Shown in pieces: positions 694 to 9,801 of a stretch of DNA of 9,895 nt. Source of the stretch: a bacterium. GTDB lineage: Bacteria; Patescibacteria; Dojkabacteria; JAKAPS01; JAJZLI01. The notes beneath the pieces are model-generated. The model was not told the origin of the DNA. It saw nothing but the letters and a program-made list of their open reading frames with translations, and did no database searches. Each line of letters starts with the position of its first letter. Within the stretch, counting starts at the first letter, position 1. The DNA is taken from positions 1 through 9,895 of the forward strand of contig JAJZKG010000017.1 of the NCBI GenBank assembly GCA_021809565.1, read 5' to 3'. A program made the position numbers and the translations under genes.

Positions 694-1389
694 CTACGCC
701 TTTGATCTATACTTATTGTTTATAATTTCAAGAATAGGGTTAATATCATCATTCCATACTTCATATGATGCGTCATAAAAAGAATGGGCGGACTCTTTGA
801 GTCTAGACTCTTTAAAATATTCTATTTCTGCCTTTGCAGCAATCATTCTATCTTCTATACTGTTAGCGTCATCCCCTCTTTTTTTCATCCTGTAGTACAG
901 AAAGTTTATATCTTTCGGATATAAAAATATGGAAAATGAATCCTCAAATAATGGTTTGATCTGATTAATAGTAAATATATAAATTAATACTAAAGGTGTA
1001 AATCCAGAATCAGATACATTTTTAAAAGCATCTTTTCTAAATCCATATTTTGCTCCATAAAAAGTATTTGATATTAAAAATTCACCTTTATTCTCCATAT
1101 CAGTATATTTTTTATTAGTCACGAATTCATATTCTATGTTATTATTCTCTCTGCCTCTTTTTTTACGTGTTGTAGTAGACATTACCCTCCTGAAATTGTA
1201 CTGATTATTAGAAAGTAACTTATTCATAATATAGGTTTTACCTATACCTGATGGACCTGATATTAATAGGGGAATGTTATTCCAACTAGATGTATCCCAA
1301 GGGGATGTATTCCAATGGGATGTATCCCAATGTTTAAAATTCATGAATCTAGATTCCATAAATTTAAAAAGAAACTTTATAAAGATCAT
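694..1389 (-). CDS. gmk: Guanylate kinase with repeat-bearing N-terminal extension
   Basis: Guanylate kinase phosphorylates GMP to GDP with ATP in the cytoplasm. The P-loop GPSGIGKT is at residues 45-52. The GMP-binding region STTTRKKRGRE is at 71-81, followed by YEFV (87-90), GEFLI (102-106) and YG (115-116). The lid segment has IFLYPKD (154-160), RMKKRGDD (167-174) and an R-AA-AEIE helix, and the C-terminus has the ND motif (213-214, family VVND). At 231 residues it is longer than the usual about 190-210. The excess is residues 1-40, which contain a pentapeptide repeat (WDTSH-WNTSP-WDTSS-WNN) coded by 15-bp DNA repeats. The residue after GEFL, usually Glu (LEW), is Ile-Ser here, so GMP contacts may differ. 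Start: the first ATG is used, but ATGs at residues 11 and 16 (1344) are equally possible and none has a clear ribosome binding site. It is last in the mraZ-ftsI operon, 48 bp after ftsI, an unusual place for gmk. Confidence 0.85.
   Translation of the reverse strand: MIFIKFLFKFMESRFMNFKHWDTSHWNTSPWDTSSWNNIPLLISGPSGIGKTYIMNKLLSNNQYNFRRVMSTTTRKKRGRENNNIEYEFVTNKKYTDMENKGEFLISNTFYGAKYGFRKDAFKNVSDSGFTPLVLIYIFTINQIKPLFEDSFSIFLYPKDINFLYYRMKKRGDDANSIEDRMIAAKAEIEYFKESRLKESAHSFYDASYEVWNDDINPILEIINNKYRSKA
799..813. repeat. 12-bp perfect palindrome plus TTT spacer inside gmk
   Basis: GAGTCTAGACTC (799-810) is a perfect palindrome followed by TTT. The half-unit GACTCTTT occurs at 791-798 and again at 806-813, exactly 15 bp apart. 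It encodes KESRL-KESAH in gmk. This matches the 12+3 geometry of the arrays elsewhere in the operon, but as little more than one unit. Confidence 0.45.
1271..1331 (-). repeat. 15-bp palindromic tandem repeat in the 5' end of gmk (4 units)
   Basis: On the plus strand the units are GGGATGTATCCC (1317-1328) with spacer AAT, GGGATGTATTCC (1302-1313) with AAT, TAGATGTATCCC (1287-1298) with AAG, and GGAATGTTATTCC (1271-1283, one base longer) with AAC. The first is a perfect inverted repeat GGGAT/ATCCC around GT. The array is in frame and encodes repeated W-[DN]-T-S-x just before the P-loop domain. Confidence 0.9.
1344..1358. repeat. Dispersed palindromic repeat, copy 1 (TGAATCTAGATTCCA)
   Basis: This 15-bp stretch contains the perfect 12-bp palindrome GAATCTAGATTC (1345-1356). 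Its reverse complement is identical to 5355-5369, upstream of the ATP-grasp gene, and both copies have GAATTTT and AATTTA nearby at almost the same distances. It lies in the N-terminal extension of gmk and overlaps the candidate internal start codon at 1342-1344. Confidence 0.6.
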
Positions 1390-1437
1390 AACATAATAAA
1401 CAATATAGTTTAATATATGATTTTTTAAAGAAGGAAT

Positions 1438-3255
1438 TTATGGTGCAATACCATAGTACTGGAATAATTGTTTTGCTATTGCCCCCCACTCTACACAGGC
1501 TGTGGTTGCAGCATAATATTGGCCTAAGAGTGGTTTATGAGGAGAGTTCATCATTGTAAGTAGTATAAATTTAGGGTTATTTGCTGGAGCATATGCTACA
1601 TATGTCATCACATAATTGTGAGTAGAATATTGTCCAGGATGTTTTACGGATGGCATTTGAGCAGAACCAGTCTTTCCAGCGATAATAGGCATATATGCTC
1701 CAACTCCAGTTTGGTGTAACGCCCAATTAGGTTCTCCACCCGTTGTATATGTAAACATAGAATTAAGCTGTGATGCTACTGTAGGAGTTATGGGCCTGTT
1801 CACTACAGTTGGATGATACACCACAGTCTTACCATCTGGAGTTGTGATGCTATTCACTACATATGGTTGCATTCTCACTCCTCCGTTTGCAACAGCAGCA
1901 TATGCATCTATAATCTGAAGCGGAGATACGGAAACAAATTGTCCAAAAGAATCTGTTGCAAGATTGGATTCATTCCATGTTTGATATGGAGGAATAATTC
2001 CTGTCTCCTCACCTTGAAGTGTAATACCAGTAAGTGAACCAAACCCAAAATTTTTGGATTCATTATACATAATTTGTGATGAAAGGTATTTTGTTGCAAT
2101 AATACTAGCTCCAACATTTGATGATTGAAATAGAATTTGACCAAGATTCATCACTCCATCAGGAGCCTTATTCCAGTTATATATAGTTTTTCCTCCAACT
2201 ACGAACCTTCCTGTTTTATCATCTACTGTAGTTTGTGGAGTAACCTTACCAGATGATAGTGCTGCTGCTGCCATAATCAGTTTTCCTACAGACCCAGGCT
2301 CATAAATAAATGAAATAGCATTATTAAGATAATCCGAATATTGATACTTCCAGTAAGTATTTGGATTAAAACTAGGGTATGAAGACATAGCAATAATAGC
2401 ACCTGTTTTAGGGTTCATAACTATTGCTGCACCAGATGTTGCGTCTTCTTTTTTTGACCAATATTGGATATCCGATGATACAATATTTTGTATAGCTGGG
2501 TTTAGTGTTAGATTTATAGTATCACCATTTTGTGGTGGTATGAATTTATAATTTTTATTAAGTAAGGGTATTCCTAAAGCACTTTCTATCCCTTGGGTGT
2601 AGCCAGAATGTCCTGTTAAAGCCCCATTAAAGTATCCTTCAATACCATAAAATCCACTAATATTACCACTTCTATCCTTGCCTAAAAACCCTAATACATG
2701 AGCAAATAAACTACCATTAGGATATGACCTTTGTTCATTTTGGATGAAAGATAAAGAGGTTAGATTAGATAATTTATTCTTCTCTTTTGTAGTTACATTT
2801 GAAGCAATTCTAACCCATATAAGCTTTAGATTTATTAAATTCCAAATTTGCTGCTGTGGGAGACCTAATTCCTTTGTTACCTCACTGACAAAATTATTTC
2901 TATTTGTAATATTTTTTATTGTGACATAGGCATCATATATAGGTACATTATCAGCGAGAACAAGACCATTAGATGCAGTTATAAGACCTCGGAGTGATGG
3001 AATTGTAGTTGAAAAATTATTTTCCTGTGCAGCCTGTATTGTGTATTTACTATTCTGACTTATTTGTATATTAAAAAGCTTAAACCCTAATACTAAAGAT
3101 ATTATAACAAAAATTATCATTATACTTGATATTTTTCTGCTAAATGATCTATACCCTGAGGAGCTTGCTCCTGCGGGGCTTGCTCCTCCGGGGCTTACTC
3201 CTGAGGATATTGACCCTGATTTAGCAGGTTTGAGACCGAATTTTCTACTGTCCAT
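1438..3255 (-). CDS. ftsI: FtsI-type class B penicillin-binding protein (peptidoglycan transpeptidase)
   Basis: This membrane-anchored DD-transpeptidase cross-links septal peptidoglycan and works with the FtsL-like protein coded just upstream. A short cytoplasmic tail (1-40) is followed by one membrane helix (about 44-62). A pedestal/dimerisation domain begins with the conserved LRGLITASNGLVLADN and includes YPNGSLFAHVLGFLG. The transpeptidase domain covers about residues 260-600 and has all three active-site motifs: SxxK as S322-V-G-K325 in YEPGSVGK, SxN as S378-S379-N380, and KTG at 528-530 (KTGSAQ). At 605 residues it is normal length for FtsI/PBP2. Gly in the third SxxK position (often Phe or Met) is unusual but leaves the catalytic Ser and Lys intact. 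The cytoplasmic tail contains a G-x-S pentapeptide repeat coded by 15-bp palindromic units. The start codon is 28 bp after the ftsL stop. PBP2/SpoVD-type is the alternative name; the dcw context favours FtsI. Confidence 0.95.
   Translation of the reverse strand: MDSRKFGLKPAKSGSISSGVSPGGASPAGASSSGYRSFSRKISSIMIIFVIISLVLGFKLFNIQISQNSKYTIQAAQENNFSTTIPSLRGLITASNGLVLADNVPIYDAYVTIKNITNRNNFVSEVTKELGLPQQQIWNLINLKLIWVRIASNVTTKEKNKLSNLTSLSFIQNEQRSYPNGSLFAHVLGFLGKDRSGNISGFYGIEGYFNGALTGHSGYTQGIESALGIPLLNKNYKFIPPQNGDTINLTLNPAIQNIVSSDIQYWSKKEDATSGAAIVMNPKTGAIIAMSSYPSFNPNTYWKYQYSDYLNNAISFIYEPGSVGKLIMAAAALSSGKVTPQTTVDDKTGRFVVGGKTIYNWNKAPDGVMNLGQILFQSSNVGASIIATKYLSSQIMYNESKNFGFGSLTGITLQGEETGIIPPYQTWNESNLATDSFGQFVSVSPLQIIDAYAAVANGGVRMQPYVVNSITTPDGKTVVYHPTVVNRPITPTVASQLNSMFTYTTGGEPNWALHQTGVGAYMPIIAGKTGSAQMPSVKHPGQYSTHNYVMTYVAYAPANNPKFILLTMMNSPHKPLLGQYYAATTACVEWGAIAKQLFQYYGIAP
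3145..3219 (-). repeat. 15-bp palindromic tandem repeat in the 5' end of ftsI (4 clear units plus 1 degenerate)
   Basis: Plus-strand units are TGATCTATACCC (3145, degenerate), GGAGCTTGCTCC (3160), GGGGCTTGCTCC (3175), GGGGCTTACTCC (3190) and GGATATTGACCC (3205), each followed by a 3-bp spacer (TGA, TGC, TCC, TGA, TGA). GGAGC-TT-GCTCC is an inverted repeat. The array encodes x-G-x-S-x pentapeptides in the cytoplasmic tail, before the membrane helix. The 12-mer at 3160-3171 is identical to one in the ftsL array (3365-3376). Confidence 0.9.
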
Positions 3256-3283
3256 TATGATAATCCATATTTATTAACAAGCT

Positions 3284-3673
3284 TTAATTGGAACTAGTTG
3301 TCTTAGGTCCAGATCCAGTGGATCCAGATCCAAGGGAACTTGCTCCAAGGGATCCAGATCCAAGGGAGCTTGCTCCAAGATTGAAACTATAAGTACCTCC
3401 TGGGACATACTGTACGCTCTTTACACTTTTATATCCATTCTTCAATACCGTATTTTTGATTGCCATAATTGATTGGGCAGAAGAAACTTCTCCTTGTAGA
3501 TTTTGATTCTGTATATTGATAGCACTATATTGATTAACAAGGTTTGAAACCTGTATACTTGCCAGATCAATTTTATTCATTAAATATAACTGACCGGCAA
3601 CCACCATGATAAGTACTACTATCATAAGATTTAACAATTTATTTAATTTTGTTGTTTTTTTATTTCTTTTCAT
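3284..3673 (-). CDS. ftsL: FtsL-like bitopic cell-division protein
   Basis: The 129-residue protein has a basic cytoplasmic N-terminus (MKRNKKTTKLNK), one membrane helix (about 13-29) and a hydrophilic, heptad-like outer segment (about 36-75, rich in Asn, Gln and Ser). That is the architecture of FtsL/DivIC, which bridge FtsI to the rest of the divisome. Sequence conservation in this family is weak, so the call rests on topology, size and position between rsmH and ftsI. The start codon overlaps the last codons of rsmH by 14 bp, suggesting translational coupling. The C-terminal 25 to 30 residues are a Gly/Ser pentapeptide repeat (LGASS-LGSGS-LGASS-LGSGS-TGSGP) that looks like a flexible tail and is coded by the 15-bp palindromic array. 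Confidence 0.75.
   Translation of the reverse strand: MKRNKKTTKLNKLLNLMIVVLIMVVAGQLYLMNKIDLASIQVSNLVNQYSAINIQNQNLQGEVSSAQSIMAIKNTVLKNGYKSVKSVQYVPGGTYSFNLGASSLGSGSLGASSLGSGSTGSGPKTTSSN
3305..3379 (-). repeat. 15-bp palindromic tandem repeat in the 3' end of ftsL (5 units)
   Basis: Plus-strand units are AGGTCCAGATCC (3305), GGATCCAGATCC (3320), GGAACTTGCTCC (3335), GGATCCAGATCC (3350) and GGAGCTTGCTCC (3365), with spacers AGT, AAG, AAG, AAG, AAG. Two unit types alternate, so the array also has a 30-bp period with a single difference between copies. GGATC-CA-GATCC and GGAGC-TT-GCTCC are inverted repeats with a 2-bp centre. Confidence 0.93.
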
Positions 3674-4727
3674 ATACTCTTAATTTTGCAGATCTTGCTC
3701 TTTTATTTTTTTCAATCTCCATAGTTTCTGGAACAATGGGTTTTTTATATAAGCTTATAAACTCCTTATTGCCACCAGATCTATATTCATTGGATCTTGA
3801 TCCATTAAAAAAATTCTTAACAATTCTATCTTCCAGTGAATGGAAAGATATTATTTCTACCCTACCCCCATGTTCAAGTATTTCTGGCACTTGGTGCAGT
3901 GAATCAAATAAAGCGCCCAACTCATCGTTGACTGCTATTCTTAATGCCTGAAATATCCTTGATACATGGTGATAGAGATAAGCTTTATTTCTTGACTCTA
4001 ATTCCTTCTTTAGTGGTATTTTTACACTATAACTAATGATTTTAACTAGTTCATCTGATTTGACAATTTCCTTTTCTTTACGTTTTTTTATAATATTCTT
4101 AGCTATAATTCTAGAGAATGGTTCTTCCCCATATTTTTTGAAGATATTATAAAGCTCATCTTCATATAGTCCATTTATTAAATCTGAAGCCTTCACTTTT
4201 AAATTCTTATCCATCCTCATATCAAGATCAGAATTCTCAATATATGAGAATCCTTTATCCGAATTATCTATCTGAAAACTAGAAAGCCCAAGATCATAGA
4301 CTATACCATTTACCTTACTTTCTATATTAATACCTGAAAGTATGGATTTAATATTCCTGAAGTTTGAGTTTACTATGTATACTCTTACATCACCTACTAA
4401 GATATATGTATTCATATCCTTGATATTTTTAAAATGCTTATCTAGTAATTTTCGAAAATTCAAGCAAGCATCATTATCAACATCAATAGATACCAAAGTA
4501 GCTTTTCTAAAACCACCTTGTTGTAGATTTTCTATAATCTTTAAACTTACCCCTCCACCCCCAAGAGTCATATCTACATATATCCTTTCTTTACTAATAT
4601 TCCCAGTATCACCATTCTTGGTATAAATACCAGAGGTATAGATACCAGAGGTATAGATACCAACGGTATATATACCTAGATTGTCTAAAACTTGTTGTAA
4701 AAGGACACTGTTATGATAGTTATTCAT
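3660..4727 (-). CDS. rsmH: 16S rRNA (cytosine1402-N4)-methyltransferase RsmH (MraW) with internal repeat insertion
   Basis: RsmH transfers a methyl group from S-adenosylmethionine to N4 of C1402 in the decoding centre of 16S rRNA. Family blocks seen in order: HNSVLLQQVL (5-14), the SAM-binding loop YVDMTLGGGGVS (50-61), SIDVDNDA (80-87), GIVYDLGLSSFQID (141-154), GFSYIENSDLDMRMD (159-173), FQALRIAVNDELGAL (259-273), GGRVEIISFHSLEDRIVK (287-304) and the closing RARSAKLRV (343-351). At 355 residues it is some 40 longer than usual. Part of the excess is an insertion at about residues 18-46 between the first two blocks, made of GIYTV, GIYTS, GIYTS, GIYTK and then NGDTGNIS; E. coli RsmH has only a short linker there. 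The usual His after the glycine run (GGHS) is Val60. It starts 6 bp after mraZ and overlaps the start of ftsL by 14 bp. Confidence 0.96.
   Translation of the reverse strand: MNNYHNSVLLQQVLDNLGIYTVGIYTSGIYTSGIYTKNGDTGNISKERIYVDMTLGGGGVSLKIIENLQQGGFRKATLVSIDVDNDACLNFRKLLDKHFKNIKDMNTYILVGDVRVYIVNSNFRNIKSILSGINIESKVNGIVYDLGLSSFQIDNSDKGFSYIENSDLDMRMDKNLKVKASDLINGLYEDELYNIFKKYGEEPFSRIIAKNIIKKRKEKEIVKSDELVKIISYSVKIPLKKELESRNKAYLYHHVSRIFQALRIAVNDELGALFDSLHQVPEILEHGGRVEIISFHSLEDRIVKNFFNGSRSNEYRSGGNKEFISLYKKPIVPETMEIEKNKRARSAKLRVYEKK
4586..4619. repeat. Dispersed repeat, rsmH copy (pairs with 9863-9895)
   Basis: TTTCTTTA (4586-4593), one extra C, then 20 bp (4595-4614) identical to 9871-9890, one mismatch, then TCTT. 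In rsmH it encodes KNGDTGNIS directly next to the GIYTx array. At the window end the same frame reads KTGDTGNII before a stop codon. Confidence 0.75.
4620..4679 (-). repeat. 15-bp palindromic tandem repeat inserted inside rsmH (4 units)
   Basis: Plus-strand units are GGTATAAATACC (4620), GGTATAGATACC (4635), GGTATAGATACC (4650) and GGTATATATACC (4665, a perfect palindrome), with spacers AGA, AGA, AAC, TAG. Read on the minus strand they encode GIYTV-GIYTS-GIYTS-GIYTK. All units have arms GGTAT/ATACC around 2 bp, the same 12+3 geometry as the ftsL, ftsI and gmk arrays but with a different sequence. Confidence 0.95.
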
Positions 4728-5354: not shown

Positions 5355-5369
5355 TGGAATCTAGATTCA
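5355..5369. repeat. Dispersed palindromic repeat, copy 2 (TGGAATCTAGATTCA)
   Basis: This is identical in reverse complement to 1344-1358 in gmk and contains the perfect palindrome GAATCTAGATTC (5357-5368). It lies in the 217-bp divergent region between mraZ and the ATP-grasp gene. GGAAT recurs 15 bp later (5371). Confidence 0.6.
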
Positions 5370-5424: not shown

Positions 5425-6300
5425 ATGAAAATACTAATAATAGGAAACAAAAAATCAGAACAGACTATATATATATACAAAGAAGCAATTAATAGAGGTC
5501 ATACAGCAGATATTATATCTAAAAAAAGTATATCTATTAAATATGACGGACCTTCTATTTTTGTATCAAGTGATGATATTCACAACGAGTTTCTATCATA
5601 TGATGTATACATATTCAGAATTATAAAGAATGATTTTGCCTCAACTATAGCTTCTTATTTGAAATTACATGGTAAAGTTTTTATAGATAAAGATATGGAT
5701 GTTCCTGGAATAGGCATGAAGAATATTACAACCGTGTTAAAAAACCCTAAATTTAGTATACCATCGTTTGTATTGTCCCCACAAAAAAGTGATATTGAAA
5801 ATTTTAAATATCCAGCTGTTTTGAAAGATACATATGGTAAAAAGGGTAAAAATGCCTATATAGTAGAGGATAGCAATCAAGCTATAAAGATATTAAAAGA
5901 TAATAAAGATATAACATTTATGATGCAAGAGTATATAAAAAAAGATAAGGAAATCCGTATTATATTTGTAGGAGATAAAATACTTAATATTGGAATGCTA
6001 AAGATAAATGATAAAAAATTTGTACAAAATATTGCTCAAGGAGGAATTGGAATACCTGTAAAATTGAGTAAAGAGGAACTTGAAATTGCAGAACAATGTA
6101 TGATGATATCATCTTTTGATATCGGAGGTATAGACATTATGTTAGGATCCAAAGATTCAATAGAACCTAAACAAGAATATTTCGTACTTGAGATAAACAG
6201 ATCACCTATTTTCTTAGAGTTTATGAAAGTAACAAATATGAATGTACCTAATGAAATAATAAAGCTCTTAGAAGAAAGGTATACAGAAAACAAAAATTAA
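5425..6300 (+). CDS. RimK-like ATP-grasp ligase
   Basis: ATP-grasp ligases of this type join a carboxylate to an amine through an acyl phosphate, using ATP and Mg. RimK adds glutamate to ribosomal protein S6, and relatives make amino-acid or peptide conjugates. Seen here: an N-terminal Rossmann-like part (MKILIIGNKKSEQT), a linker, then the ATP-grasp fold. This has the nucleotide-binding Lys in YPAVLKDTYGKKGKNA (K134, with its Gly-rich loop), the hinge FMMQEYI (E169), the RIIFVGDKIL strand, and metal ligands in GGIDIML (D237) and FVLEINRSP (E256, N258). The 291-residue length fits RimK/LysX-type enzymes. The substrate cannot be read from the sequence, and no carrier protein or obvious acceptor tail is coded next to it, so I give no gene symbol. 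The gene opens a plus-strand run that may include ybjQ and the exonuclease, though the 71-bp gap to ybjQ leaves room for a separate promoter. Confidence 0.85.
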   Translation: MKILIIGNKKSEQTIYIYKEAINRGHTADIISKKSISIKYDGPSIFVSSDDIHNEFLSYDVYIFRIIKNDFASTIASYLKLHGKVFIDKDMDVPGIGMKNITTVLKNPKFSIPSFVLSPQKSDIENFKYPAVLKDTYGKKGKNAYIVEDSNQAIKILKDNKDITFMMQEYIKKDKEIRIIFVGDKILNIGMLKINDKKFVQNIAQGGIGIPVKLSKEELEIAEQCMMISSFDIGGIDIMLGSKDSIEPKQEYFVLEINRSPIFLEFMKVTNMNVPNEIIKLLEERYTENKN

Positions 6301-6727: not shown

Positions 6728-7324
6728 ATGATAGTAGTAGATGTTGAAACTACAGGTCTAAACCCAAGGAAAAATTCTATAGTTAGTATAGGAGCAGTAA
6801 ATTTTGAAAACCCAAAAGAACAATTCTATGGAGAGTGTAGGCCTTGGATTAGTGCAGCAGTGAATGACCAAGCACTGTCCATAAATGGATTTTCTAAAGA
6901 ATACTTAAAGAACAATAAAAAGTCTCACAATAAACTCATTTTGGAATTTGCAGAATGGATGGATGGACAGGTTGAGAATCAGATTATAGGTGGACACAAT
7001 CCATTCTTTGATACTGAATTCCTCACTTATTCATATAATAAATGTAAAATAAAACCTACTTTCGGATATAGGATAGTTGATCTTCATTCGATATGTTATG
7101 CAAAAATCATTAACGATATAAAACTCCAAAATAAAAGTAGCGTAGATAAACTACACCTAACATCAAATGATATATTTAATTATGTGGGACTTTATGATGA
7201 ACCTAATCCTCATAATGGACTAACTGGAGCTAAGATGGAGGCAGAAGCATTATCAAGATTAATATCACATAAGAACTTACTTGAGGAATTTCAAAAATTT
7301 GAAATACCATACTATATTAAATAG
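6728..7324 (+). CDS. DEDDh-type 3'-5' exonuclease (DnaQ/RNase T-like), one acidic residue altered
   Basis: These enzymes remove nucleotides from 3' ends of DNA or RNA with two metal ions held by four acidic residues and a His. Motif I is VDVETTGL (D5, E7). Motif II is IGGHNPFFDTEFL (D95). Motif III has the His of PHNGLTGAKMEAEAL (H162), but the Asp expected five residues later (HxxxxD) is Gly167; E171 or E173 further along could take its place, or activity may be changed. Residues 139-157 (VDKLHLTSNDIFNYVGL) resemble the SLDKL-LG helix that precedes motif III in the family. At 198 residues it is a stand-alone domain with no polymerase or helicase part, so the role (proofreading, RNA processing or repair) is open. 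It starts 11 bp after ybjQ and its 3' end overlaps the convergent membrane-protein gene by 13 bp. Confidence 0.85.
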   Translation: MIVVDVETTGLNPRKNSIVSIGAVNFENPKEQFYGECRPWISAAVNDQALSINGFSKEYLKNNKKSHNKLILEFAEWMDGQVENQIIGGHNPFFDTEFLTYSYNKCKIKPTFGYRIVDLHSICYAKIINDIKLQNKSSVDKLHLTSNDIFNYVGLYDEPNPHNGLTGAKMEAEALSRLISHKNLLEEFQKFEIPYYIK

Positions 7325-7830
7325 TTTTTTTTGGATAGTTCTAATTCTTTTTTACTTCTAGCTTTCTCAAAATATACACCAATGTATATAAATAATATAC
7401 CAAATGCCATTGATACTACAGTAGATAATATAAATAGTATCATCATTTCGAAAAAATATGATGACTGAGTAAGATAAGTTATTGGAATACCTTGAGATTT
7501 GAATAAATGTTGGTTATGTTTTATTACTTGGTTCTGATATAGCCAAGGGTGAGTAGTAAGATCTATTATAAAAGTTAAAAGTGTTCCTAATATCCCTGCT
7601 ATAAGATTTAGAAAAATTGCAAAAAATACTATGGACTTCATAGAGAATTGAGTCTTTTGCATAAGATGACCAGCATACACAAAAAATAATATGAACCCTA
7701 TAAGAATAAAAAGTGAAATCACATCTGGAACTATTGTTTTGTATAAAATATCATCTATTAAAGTTAAAATTAGATATACAATTAAGAATCCCATCCCATA
7801 CAACTTTATTGGCCCAAATTTTTTTAACAT
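7312..7830 (-). CDS. Four-helix membrane protein of unknown function, paralogue A
   Basis: I do not recognise the family. The 172-residue protein has four predicted membrane helices (about 12-30, 36-54, 66-90, 127-154). A polar loop between helices 3 and 4 contains the motif FIIDLTTHPWLYQNQ, and the C-terminal tail is charged (EKARSKKELELSKKN). It is clearly related to the next gene upstream (7888-8361): both have four helices, a FID-x-x-T-x-PW-x-Y motif with PW at residues 95-96 in each, and a GxL/MGxxFYI-type last helix ending in a charged tail. The two lie in tandem 57 bp apart and probably arose by duplication. Its stop region overlaps the exonuclease gene by 13 bp tail to tail. No ribosome binding site is visible. 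Confidence 0.8.
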   Translation of the reverse strand: MLKKFGPIKLYGMGFLIVYLILTLIDDILYKTIVPDVISLFILIGFILFFVYAGHLMQKTQFSMKSIVFFAIFLNLIAGILGTLLTFIIDLTTHPWLYQNQVIKHNQHLFKSQGIPITYLTQSSYFFEMMILFILSTVVSMAFGILFIYIGVYFEKARSKKELELSKKNYLI

Positions 7831-7862: not shown

Positions 7863-7902
7863 GGATTTAAATTCTAGGATTTAGATCTTAGGACTTAGAT
7901 CC
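7863..7902. repeat. 14-bp tandem repeat across the end of the paralogue B gene (3 units)
   Basis: Units are GGATTTAAATTC (7863), GGATTTAGATCT (7877) and GGACTTAGATCC (7891); the first two are each followed by TA. The last unit codes the end of paralogue B; the middle unit holds the first base of the stop codon, the rest of which (TA) is the next spacer, and the first lies in untranslated DNA. The 12-bp core beginning GG resembles the coding arrays, but the 2-bp spacer makes the period 14, which would not keep a reading frame. Confidence 0.75.
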
Positions 7903-8361
7903 TTTTGTATATTCATGAATTTTAGTACCCATATATACAAATGCCAGATAAAATATAGTTAAAATAACCAGATCTAATATGAATGATCCAGATATCTGAC
8001 CATAAAAAGCAGCTTGAGATATTGATTCTATACTTTTATGATTTATTGAATAATATAAATTAGAAAAGTAAACCCAAGGCTCTGTATATGAATCAATGAA
8101 TACTGTTGTTACAAAACTAAGTATTTTAGTTGCAAAAATTACTAGAAAGGCATATAAATAAGGTTCCATTTTTGTATATTTTTTAAAATAGAAACCAAAA
8201 TATATAAAAAACAGTATAGAAACAACAATCATGAAATAATATAGTATCTCAGACAAAATAGTAGTTTGGTAAAAAATTCCAGTAAAAATAGATACAAGAA
8301 TATTCAAAAGAAAATATAAAATTATATACCTTTGGAGCCAACTCCTTTTTACGTCTATCAT
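7888..8361 (-). CDS. Four-helix membrane protein of unknown function, paralogue B
   Basis: The 157-residue integral membrane protein is related to the downstream neighbour and of unknown family. Helices are at about 11-30, 37-57, 68-89 and 127-146. The motif VFIDSYTEPWVYFSN lies between helices 3 and 4, matching FIIDLTTHPWLYQN in the paralogue at the same residue positions. The N-terminus is basic (MIDVKRSWLQR) and the tail short and polar (HEYTKGSKS). AATAAT (8370-8375) lies 8 bp ahead of the ATG and could be a -10 for a leaderless message. The TAA stop falls inside a 14-bp tandem repeat that continues into the intergenic DNA. Aromatic content is high (many Phe and Tyr), and no catalytic motif is visible. 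Confidence 0.8.
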   Translation of the reverse strand: MIDVKRSWLQRYIILYFLLNILVSIFTGIFYQTTILSEILYYFMIVVSILFFIYFGFYFKKYTKMEPYLYAFLVIFATKILSFVTTVFIDSYTEPWVYFSNLYYSINHKSIESISQAAFYGQISGSFILDLVILTIFYLAFVYMGTKIHEYTKGSKS

Positions 8362-8427: not shown

Positions 8428-9759
8428 CTATTTAAATATATAGAAATCTCCAGAAAGGTTATCTGCATAAAATTTACCATTAGCATAAAACATTCCTCCA
8501 ACTGCAACTTTTCCTCCTGTGGTACGAGTAGCTAAATATTTTCCCGTATTTTTATTATATACTTGAATATTACCAAGACCATTATCAAAATATAGATAGT
8601 TACCAACTACAATAAATGGTTTATTATTTAATCCTGTAGAATGTGTAGACCATACTATTTTACCTGTATTTGTATTTACTGCAATGATCTTTTGTGTTGC
8701 AGTGGAACCTACATAAACCATATTTCCACTTATTGTAGGAACACTACCTATCATTTGAGCTCCATGAGGTAGATTCAAAGGTCCATATCCTTCATTTAGA
8801 GACCATACGATAGATCCTGTCTGAGCATTAATCTTATATAAATATTCATATCCAGAGTTTGTTTTATCATTAACCAATTTTGCAGCATCAGTATAAATAT
8901 AACCATTTGAATATGCAGGAATAACATCATCTAATCCACCATTTATTCCAATATTTCCAAAATTATGTTTCCATACTATTTGGTGTGTTTGTATATTTAC
9001 ATCAAATAAATAATAAGGATAAGAACCTCCAAAATATAAATTATTACCAACCAATAGTGGAGATGCTTGTGAAGATATTGAACCATAATCTAGACTCCAT
9101 AACACTTTTCCAGTACTAACATCAAGTGCATACAGCATTCTATTCCCTCCTATTGTGTATACTACTCCATTCTTGTATGCAGGGGTTGGTTTCCTTTGAC
9201 CATTGGTAACTGTGAATTTCCAAATGATCTTCCCAGTACTAATATCCAAAGCATAAACACCACTAAGCCCAGTACCTCTATTAAATGTAGTCTTAGAGGT
9301 ATTAAAGAATGCATCATTCCCAGTACTCACAATAACCATACCAAGTTGAGATAGAACCAATGGGTTATTCATAACAAGATTAGGAAAATTTGTTCTCCAT
9401 ACAATTTTACCAGTTTTATTGTCTATTTTGACTATAGCTCCTTGATAATTTGGGTTGGGAACGCCATAGGTTTCAAAATAGTTAGCAGTATCTAGAAAAG
9501 AATAATCTCCAGAAACAACAGGTTGAGAAAAGAATGGAAGACCATAGTTCTTCTTTAAAACAACTTTATCCAGATATGTCTCTGTCTTGGTAACAACTGA
9601 ATTATTTTTTTCACTACCATATGCTGAAGAAACATTACTTGTATAATATGATGTTTGAGGCGTTACTACAACAGTCTTTTTAGTTAATAGTGAAACTACT
9701 ACAACTAATATTACTGCCAGAAGAACACCTATTATATATTTTTTATTATTTATTCTCAT
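8428..9759 (-). CDS. Membrane-anchored PQQ-type beta-propeller protein
   Basis: I place the start at the ATG of residue 15 of the longest frame (which begins at 9801). From there the protein begins MRINNKKYIIGVLLAVILVV, a basic stretch followed by one strong membrane helix, and a TATAAT box sits 6 bp upstream; the longer form adds 14 residues. The rest (about 400 residues) lies outside the membrane. It contains seven propeller repeats of the form (V/A)-x-x-x-(T/D)G-K-I-V-W, with tryptophans (numbered from the longer start) at 135, 194, 235, 277, 333 and 384 and a last repeat NKNTGKYLA without Trp. This is the PQQ/YWTD-like eight-residue signature seen in BamB and in PQQ dehydrogenases. No dehydrogenase active-site residues or cofactor ligands are obvious, so a structural or binding role on the cell surface is more likely than catalysis. 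A Thr/Ser/Tyr-rich linker (50-75) separates helix and propeller. Confidence 0.88.
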   Translation of the reverse strand: MRINNKKYIIGVLLAVILVVVVSLLTKKTVVVTPQTSYYTSNVSSAYGSEKNNSVVTKTETYLDKVVLKKNYGLPFFSQPVVSGDYSFLDTANYFETYGVPNPNYQGAIVKIDNKTGKIVWRTNFPNLVMNNPLVLSQLGMVIVSTGNDAFFNTSKTTFNRGTGLSGVYALDISTGKIIWKFTVTNGQRKPTPAYKNGVVYTIGGNRMLYALDVSTGKVLWSLDYGSISSQASPLLVGNNLYFGGSYPYYLFDVNIQTHQIVWKHNFGNIGINGGLDDVIPAYSNGYIYTDAAKLVNDKTNSGYEYLYKINAQTGSIVWSLNEGYGPLNLPHGAQMIGSVPTISGNMVYVGSTATQKIIAVNTNTGKIVWSTHSTGLNNKPFIVVGNYLYFDNGLGNIQVYNKNTGKYLATRTTGGKVAVGGMFYANGKFYADNLSGDFYIFK

Positions 9760-9765
9760 ATATCT

Positions 9766-9771
9766 ATTATA
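9766..9771 (-). promoter_or_regulatory. TATAAT box 6 bp before the preferred PQQ-protein start
   Basis: On the minus strand TATAAT is followed by AGATAT and then ATG (9757-9759), so transcription would begin at or next to the start codon. There is only a weak -35 (TTTTTA, 9789-9794). It supports the shorter start and a leaderless message, with the caution that the DNA is AT-rich. Confidence 0.35.
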
Positions 9772-9801
9772 TATACATTTAAATAATATAAAAAGTTTCA
9801 T

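Follow-up and report, generated by a model that had tools for sequence, protein, structure and literature searches.

The stretch of DNA analysed here (the window) is the entire 9,895 nt of contig JAJZKG010000017.1, from a member of the Dojkabacteria, and carries a minus-strand gene group made up of gmk, ftsI, an ftsL-like open reading frame (ORF), rsmH and mraZ. All of these except mraZ contain a tandem array with a period of 15 bp, whose unit can be read as a 12-bp palindrome with inverted arms of 5 bp on either side of a 2-bp centre (written 5+2+5), plus a short spacer. The gmk ORF (694-1389; guanylate kinase, Pfam PF00625, E 3.8e-20), with its array in the N-terminal part, is followed by ftsI (1438-3255; a penicillin-binding protein transpeptidase, PF00905, E 4.2e-58), by the ORF at 3284-3673, which has no Pfam match and is named ftsL-like from its position between ftsI and rsmH, and by rsmH (3660-4727; PF01795, E 6.1e-80). 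Three consecutive near-palindromic 12-mers at period 15 are found at four positions in the window and at none in 200 windows generated with a second-order Markov model. The four arrays which a first-pass annotation had placed in these genes do exist, at or near the places given (1271-1328 in gmk, 3160-3216 in ftsI, 3305-3376 in ftsL and 4620-4676 in rsmH). The closest genome (G001; L001, JAKAWT010000001.1, isolate YP4.bin81) was the one close relative compared as DNA, its RsmH being 69% identical to that of the window and its aligned DNA 83% identical across 8,762 columns; further close relatives (P-numbered below) were compared as proteins only. Among the relatives of RsmH and FtsI, the top-ranking ones with a named organism are from Daviesbacteria and Dojkabacteria, respectively, which suggests a place within Patescibacteria.

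The units had been described as perfect or imperfect 12+3 palindromes, and they are less uniform than that: nine in the four arrays are perfect (one in gmk, one in ftsI, three in ftsL and four in rsmH) and three have one mismatch, while the remainder have at least two mismatches or another geometry. The gmk array (1287-1331) consists of three 15-bp units, with two mismatches at 1287, one at 1302 and none at 1317. What had been taken for a fourth gmk unit (1271-1283) is really a 13-mer, the 5+3+5 palindrome GGAATGTTATTCC with its 3-nt centre, and is also present in L001, whose gmk has no array. In ftsI (3160-3219), sequence inspection gives a perfect unit at 3160, one with a single mismatch at 3175 and eroded units at 3190 and 3205. 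The ftsL array (3305-3379) has perfect units at 3320, 3350 and 3365, a one-mismatch unit at 3335 and an eroded one at 3305, with two different arms alternating, and the rsmH array (4620-4679, residues 18-36) has four perfect units with identical arms and the 2-nt centres AA, AG, AG and AT. The gmk units are indeed read in a different codon phase from those of the other three arrays. That the core differs by gene is true only in part, since ftsL contains both GGATCCAGATCC and GGAGCTTGCTCC, ftsI shares GGAGCTTGCTCC, and a single form dominates G001. Nor are the repeats limited to the four arrays. Perfect 12-mers whose arms are over-represented in G001 occur singly at 799-810 (GAGTCTAGACTC, in gmk), 1345-1356 (GAATCTAGATTC, in gmk but outside its array), 3792-3803 (GGATCTTGATCC, in rsmH, residues 309-312) and 5357-5368 (GAATCTAGATTC again, outside the listed ORFs of at least 60 aa), and a degenerate 14-bp array occupies 7863-7903, mostly between the ORFs at 7312-7830 and 7888-8361. 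Perfect 12-mers at 6102 and 6878 have other arms and may be of chance origin.

The genome-wide scan was made in the relative G001 (769,118 bases read, in contigs C1 and C2, of about 800,000) rather than in the window's own genome, with G002 as outgroup (269,952 bases read of about 900,000). A palindrome was counted as GC-rich when its 5-bp arms had at least three G or C, and the expectation was taken from a Markov model. With a 2-bp centre, G001 has 162 such perfect palindromes against 56.3 expected (62.0 by a second estimate), and the part of G002 that was read has no excess, with 6 against 10.3. Centre 3 gives 110 against 60.3 in G001, which fits spacers between units being taken for a loop. 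Centre 7 has the one other strong excess, which is common to both genomes (127 vs 52.3 in G001, 35 vs 14.0 in G002); tRNA arms would presumably produce such a signal. The 162 units lie at 136 loci, 139 units within called ORFs and 23 outside, with a higher density outside (0.43 per kb, vs 0.19 inside); as ORFs in G001 were called by our own greedy longest-ORF method, the labels coding and noncoding are approximate. Because about one third of the 162 are expected by chance, a lone unit is weak evidence and an array strong evidence. Without the GC filter, GGATC is the most over-represented centre-2 arm in G001: it has 52 copies, spread over 41 loci, where other centres average 0.2. Next come GGTAC (7), GAATC (6), CCATC (6) and GGGTC (5), each at most 0.2 at other centres. 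GGATC-NN-GATCC is thus the dominant form, and several other cores are one paired change away from it. The sequence GGATCYRGATCC has 34 matches in G001; among 56 other genomes, five have one or two and 51 none. A geometry test on parts of G003, G004, G005, G007 and G008 (small samples of 13 to 140 kb each) yielded a single period-15 pair, in G003, and no clear sign of arrays overall. The system is lineage-specific, and genome-wide in G001.

When tandem arrays in G001 were collected without regard to symmetry, with expectation from shuffled units, 27 of 72 period-15 arrays had a perfect 5+2+5 consensus (2.7 expected), so that the further arrays which a genome-wide scan had been predicted to reveal were found. 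The same is true of 7 of 34 period-14 arrays (1.0 expected); at the other periods tested, and in G002, arrays with a perfect-palindrome consensus are near chance. The two periods are distributed very differently with respect to genes: 25 of the 27 palindromic period-15 arrays lie entirely inside called ORFs, against none of the seven of period 14 (Fisher p 7e-6), five of which are outside called ORFs and two overlap an ORF end. (An uncalled 102-aa frame covers one of those five.) Spacing between neighbours follows the same division, in that a near-palindrome neighbouring a perfect unit, over 0-24 bp, is most often 3 bp off in ORFs (64 of 162 neighbour counts) and 2 bp off outside them (10 of 33). 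A 15-bp period in genes and a 14-bp period outside is as expected of a reading-frame filter on a DNA-level process, and not of peptide selection. The encoded peptides are diverse: perfect GGATC units in called G001 genes are read in the GSxS phase in 34 cases of 43 and in the DxDP phase in 9, the gmk and rsmH units give WDTS and GIYT, respectively, and RIQIP repeats are found in Gmk P0242 (protein only).

The two arms of a unit also change together. In G001 the GGATC family includes 52 pairs that are intact and 59 that carry one change (background mean 17.3); in another 37 both arms have changed in the same way, these last sitting at 36 loci when counted by arm type. The background of compensated doubles, taken from six other centres, has a mean of 9.2 (range 5 to 17), leaving an excess of 27.8 where independently mutating arms would give 0.6; the excess of non-compensated doubles, 9.3, is in line with the expectation of about 7.7. 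Over the arrays of G001 and the window together (44 arrays, 78 further units), 17 compensated doubles are seen against 3.8 expected. Between the window and L001 the evidence on paired change is mixed. At the solo gmk unit GAGTCTAGACTC the orthologous site in L001 is GGGTCTAGACCC, with both arms changed and the pairing kept, and in 17 ungapped comparisons of perfect 12-mers (chance palindromes included) six are perfect in both, four of them via a paired change, and 11 in one only. With the shift from 15 to 14 bp outside genes, and with paired arm changes far above background in G001, the proposal of the first-pass annotation that a nucleic-acid-level process and not a peptide motif is the common factor is supported, and the results point towards a process at the DNA or RNA level on which the reading frame acts as a filter.

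Comparison with relatives shows units being gained and lost. In 194 reciprocal-best protein pairs between G001 and the part of G002, the G001 protein is more than 10 aa longer in 55 and shorter in 13, and perfect units occur at 2.43 per kb (21 units) in G001-specific insertions of at least 4 aa vs 0.123 per kb (25 units) in the rest (about 20-fold; p 2e-17). RsmH of the window's clade has insertions at about five places where P0006-P0013 have gaps. L001 carries at rsmH codon 3 a 15-bp GGATCTGGATCCAAG which is absent from the window; since P0002-P0004 are also without it (at the protein level), it is probably a gain. The 45 bp of the gmk array have no counterpart in L001, and a 12-bp gap between the two ftsI genes is filled exactly by one unit, though the flanks differ. 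Window/L001 indels at unit sites in gmk, ftsI, ftsL, rsmH and mraZ measure 6, 9, 12, 15, 24, 30, 45 and 60 bp, all multiples of 3. Among the relatives compared as proteins, the array of Gmk P0241 is one unit shorter than the window's, with 182 of 186 positions identical outside the array region, FtsI P0122 agrees with that of the window in 14 of 23 array columns vs 554 of 568 elsewhere, and the length of the rsmH array differs among P0001-P0005 (proteins; DNA was compared for the window and L001 only).

The repeats are probably best explained as a minimal coding palindromic repeat that spreads by copying and slippage, is held palindromic by template-switch correction, and is neutral or selfish. 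Single units or short arrays have been gained at many places in the lineage, as the comparison with relatives shows, and arrays would then grow and shrink by one unit, through slippage or unequal exchange, as the differences in unit number among close relatives suggest. A change in one arm would be copied to the other, keeping the palindrome while its sequence drifts, which agrees with the observed co-variation; the mechanism would most likely be quasi-palindrome correction, with template switching within one strand as the DNA is replicated. In genes, selection would mainly retain lengths that keep the frame, in loops or at termini where they are tolerated, hence 12+3 = 15 bp, and outside genes the array would relax to 12+2 = 14 bp; the difference itself is statistically clear and the frame filter is its likely cause. 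No beneficial function would be required, the repeats acting as neutral or selfish sequence. If this is true, shape is separated from sequence, with arms that co-vary and cores and peptides that do not persist; core division genes acquire new peptide segments by a nucleic-acid-level process; and an uncultured lineage with a genome of about 0.8 Mb offers a natural record for asking whether template-switch correction shapes genomes.

A number of observations weigh against this explanation. The 44 arrays in which compensated doubles were counted also contain 82 single-side changes and 9 unpaired doubles, and ungapped alignment of window and L001 palindromes (chance ones included) gives 61 pairs conserved, 7 compensated and 17 broken; the broken pairs, together with the 11 of 17 12-mers that are perfect in one species only, indicate that erosion is also common. 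The compensated counts are of units or loci, each of which may not be a single event, and would be inflated if similar arms arose independently. Of the 46 perfect units in the paired G001 proteins, 25 are not at an insertion, and the lengths of the insertions (31 of 4 aa, 34 of 5 aa and 25 of 6 aa) do not peak sharply at multiples of 5 aa; many of the insertions have other causes or are eroded. Some window/L001 indels in the array genes are not unit-sized (6, 9 and 24 bp), and only the rsmH and ftsI arrays fold clearly better than shuffles as single strands. In G002, too, the Markov model underestimates some centres, namely 4 (20 vs 10.3), 6 (18 vs 9.3) and 10 (27 vs 12.0), so that the strength of the excess in G001 rests mainly on centres 2 and 3 plus the arrays. 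Finally, a purely local copying process does not readily account for the dispersal of the dominant unit, neither for the dominance of GGATC in a genome nor for the arrival of a whole GGATCTGGATCCAAG at rsmH codon 3, where the empty site has no such template; this arrival looks like movement from elsewhere.

A rival explanation is a mobile miniature element, a trans-acting enzyme inserting 12-bp palindromes with a 2-3 bp target duplication and the arrays being nested or repeated insertions. The 15-bp insertion at rsmH codon 3, the 12-bp one in ftsI and the presence of one core, GGATC, in 52 copies at 41 G001 loci all agree with this, and the 3-bp flanks of 13 strictly solo genic units with enriched arms match at 0.54 per base, which faintly suggests target duplication; full 3-bp duplications, however, are present at only two of the 13, and the arms vary widely, unlike a recognised end. 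Nor does G001 have a match for the Y1 transposase PF01797 (found in one of six genomes searched, G002), the reverse transcriptase PF00078, the resolvase PF00239 or DDE_Tnp_1 PF01609, and it has two tyrosine recombinase (PF00589) matches, at least two being found in each of eight genomes searched; no G001-specific mobility gene was found among these five families, other transposase families not having been tested. We regard a mobile element as unlikely. The idea that an active process writes palindromes purely by geometry is slightly more probable, although it too is doubtful: the process would make and repair 5+2+5 units from any local sequence, so that shape and not sequence is inherited, and would continually create new protein segments in essential genes. 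The gmk array lies beside a conserved GGAAT-NNN-ATTCC seed, which suggests palindromes written from local sequence, and it looks as if it had nucleated there, resembling the adjoining conserved GGAATAACATTCC (sense strand). There is no indication that lost hairpin or mismatch processing is the cause, since all eight genomes searched have matches to MutS and also SbcD-like matches, the latter without exception below the family cut-off.

Two further explanations invoke selection. Binding sites for a chromosomal or regulatory protein, or mRNA hairpins, kept by selection would account for the regular spacing of half-sites and for arms that co-vary, and the rsmH array folds far better than shuffles do, with z -5.5 as RNA (ftsI -3.1, ftsL -1.8, gmk -0.6) and -5.2 as DNA (ftsI -2.9, ftsL -1.2, gmk -0.8). 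As the folding program disallows 2-nt hairpin loops, neighbouring units were paired with each other instead, in rsmH via the 3-nt spacer. The many different arms within one geometry argue against sequence-specific binding, the gmk and ftsL arrays fold scarcely better than shuffles, and several orthologous sites are empty, making selected sites of this kind improbable. Selection at the protein level, for flexible Gly/Ser-type linkers of pentapeptide repeats, would agree with the prevalence of the GSxS phase among GGATC units and with the predicted structure of RsmH (13 sequences, mean pLDDT, the predicted local distance difference test score, 73.4), in which pLDDT falls below 50 at residues 1-6, 21-45, 149-151, 270-272 and 311-319; both unit sites touch such low-confidence stretches, array residues 21-36 lying within 21-45 and the solo unit (309-312) at 311-319. 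It is nevertheless very hard to maintain, given the other phases and peptides in use (DxDP, WDTS, GIYT and RIQIP), the residue changes caused by paired arm changes, and the 14-bp arrays outside called genes, which largely contradict peptide selection. Spread by viruses or plasmids was also considered: RsmH has no relative in the viral_contigs set, where the 15-bp double-unit pattern matches one contig (L135) and the 14-bp form none, and a megablast search gave no plasmid match. The L135 match, at 1145-1171, encodes GSGSLGSGS on a contig whose ORFs look unrelated, and is probably a coincidence.

Rickettsia-type elements are longer single insertions, of about 100 bp or more and with a family consensus; the units here are only 12 bp, often tandem and with many different arms, and so are not long elements of that type. 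To our knowledge, they would be among the smallest coding palindromic repeats. In having tandem units whose number varies between close relatives (gmk, rsmH) they resemble minisatellites (variable number tandem repeats), but ordinary minisatellites, as far as we know, can lack palindromes and have no single geometry that is common to different sequences throughout a genome. As regards miniature inverted-repeat transposable elements, which have terminal inverted repeats, a target-site duplication and a source transposase, the observations are a weak similarity of the 3-bp flanks, four mobility families without a match in G001 and tyrosine recombinases matched in all eight genomes searched. In-frame protein-coding palindromes are an established kind in Rickettsia, Wolbachia and Methanocaldococcus jannaschii, and an insertion in Rickettsia guanylate kinase is named among the references of the paper that cites them (PMC2996958); the description of the present system as undescribed may therefore hold for its family and geometry, and not for its kind. 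The likeness lies in palindromic DNA that housekeeping genes carry in frame where it is tolerated (PMC2996958), and here too the palindromic insertions in ORFs keep the frame. Rickettsia elements lose arm identity over time (PMC6649704), unlike the arms here, which co-vary, though erosion is also seen.

Palindromes in protein genes of Nematomorpha mitochondria have arms that likewise stay matched, with template switching named as one possible mechanism; those repeats are mitochondrial, reach 284 bp and are not tandem 12-bp units (PMC6649704). PARCELs, which occur in Mollicutes among others, are tandem coding repeats whose DNA has dyad symmetry, as here, but they encode a 25-residue amphipathic protein motif in ORFs without assigned functions, some of them surface lipoproteins (PMC2996958); compared by description (not by the PARCEL hidden Markov model), the present repeats differ in their 5-residue period, in peptides that vary by gene and phase, and in affecting core genes. 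REP and REPIN sequences are also short palindromes, sometimes in tandem clusters, REPINs being tied to Y1-type RAYT transposases (PMC3116915) and most REPs falling into two super-families with GTAG/CGTC tags (PMC3733652). They are 20-40 bp and extragenic, whereas the units here are 12 bp and 139 of 162 are in called ORFs, in a genome without a match to the RAYT (Y1) family PF01797. A search of open-licence literature with few terms, covering titles and abstract beginnings among the matches listed, found no report of tandem 12-bp coding palindromes, which does not show their absence. The novel part may be the 12-bp tandem form with conserved geometry, in-frame coding palindromes as such being already known.

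Unit density is uneven in G001 and highest near contig ends, at 240-287 kb of C1 (9 and 10 per 20 kb, with 8 in the final 7 kb) and in the first 20 kb of C2 (18). The data are from a metagenome-assembled genome, and positions 1-127 of C1 and C2 are identical, which suggests an assembly word of such size; the listed G001 arrays, the longest about 90 bp, are shorter than this, and the shared 127 bases include the palindrome GGTACTAGTACC. Elsewhere in the window, an ORF of 229 aa at 2-691 is open towards the start of the window, and 8428-9801 encodes a BamB/PQQ beta-propeller-like protein. A RimK-like ATP-grasp gene lies at 5425-6300, and about 0.87 kb of this gene and its upstream region has no syntenic counterpart in L001 (gaps of 391, 104, 193 and 177 bp).

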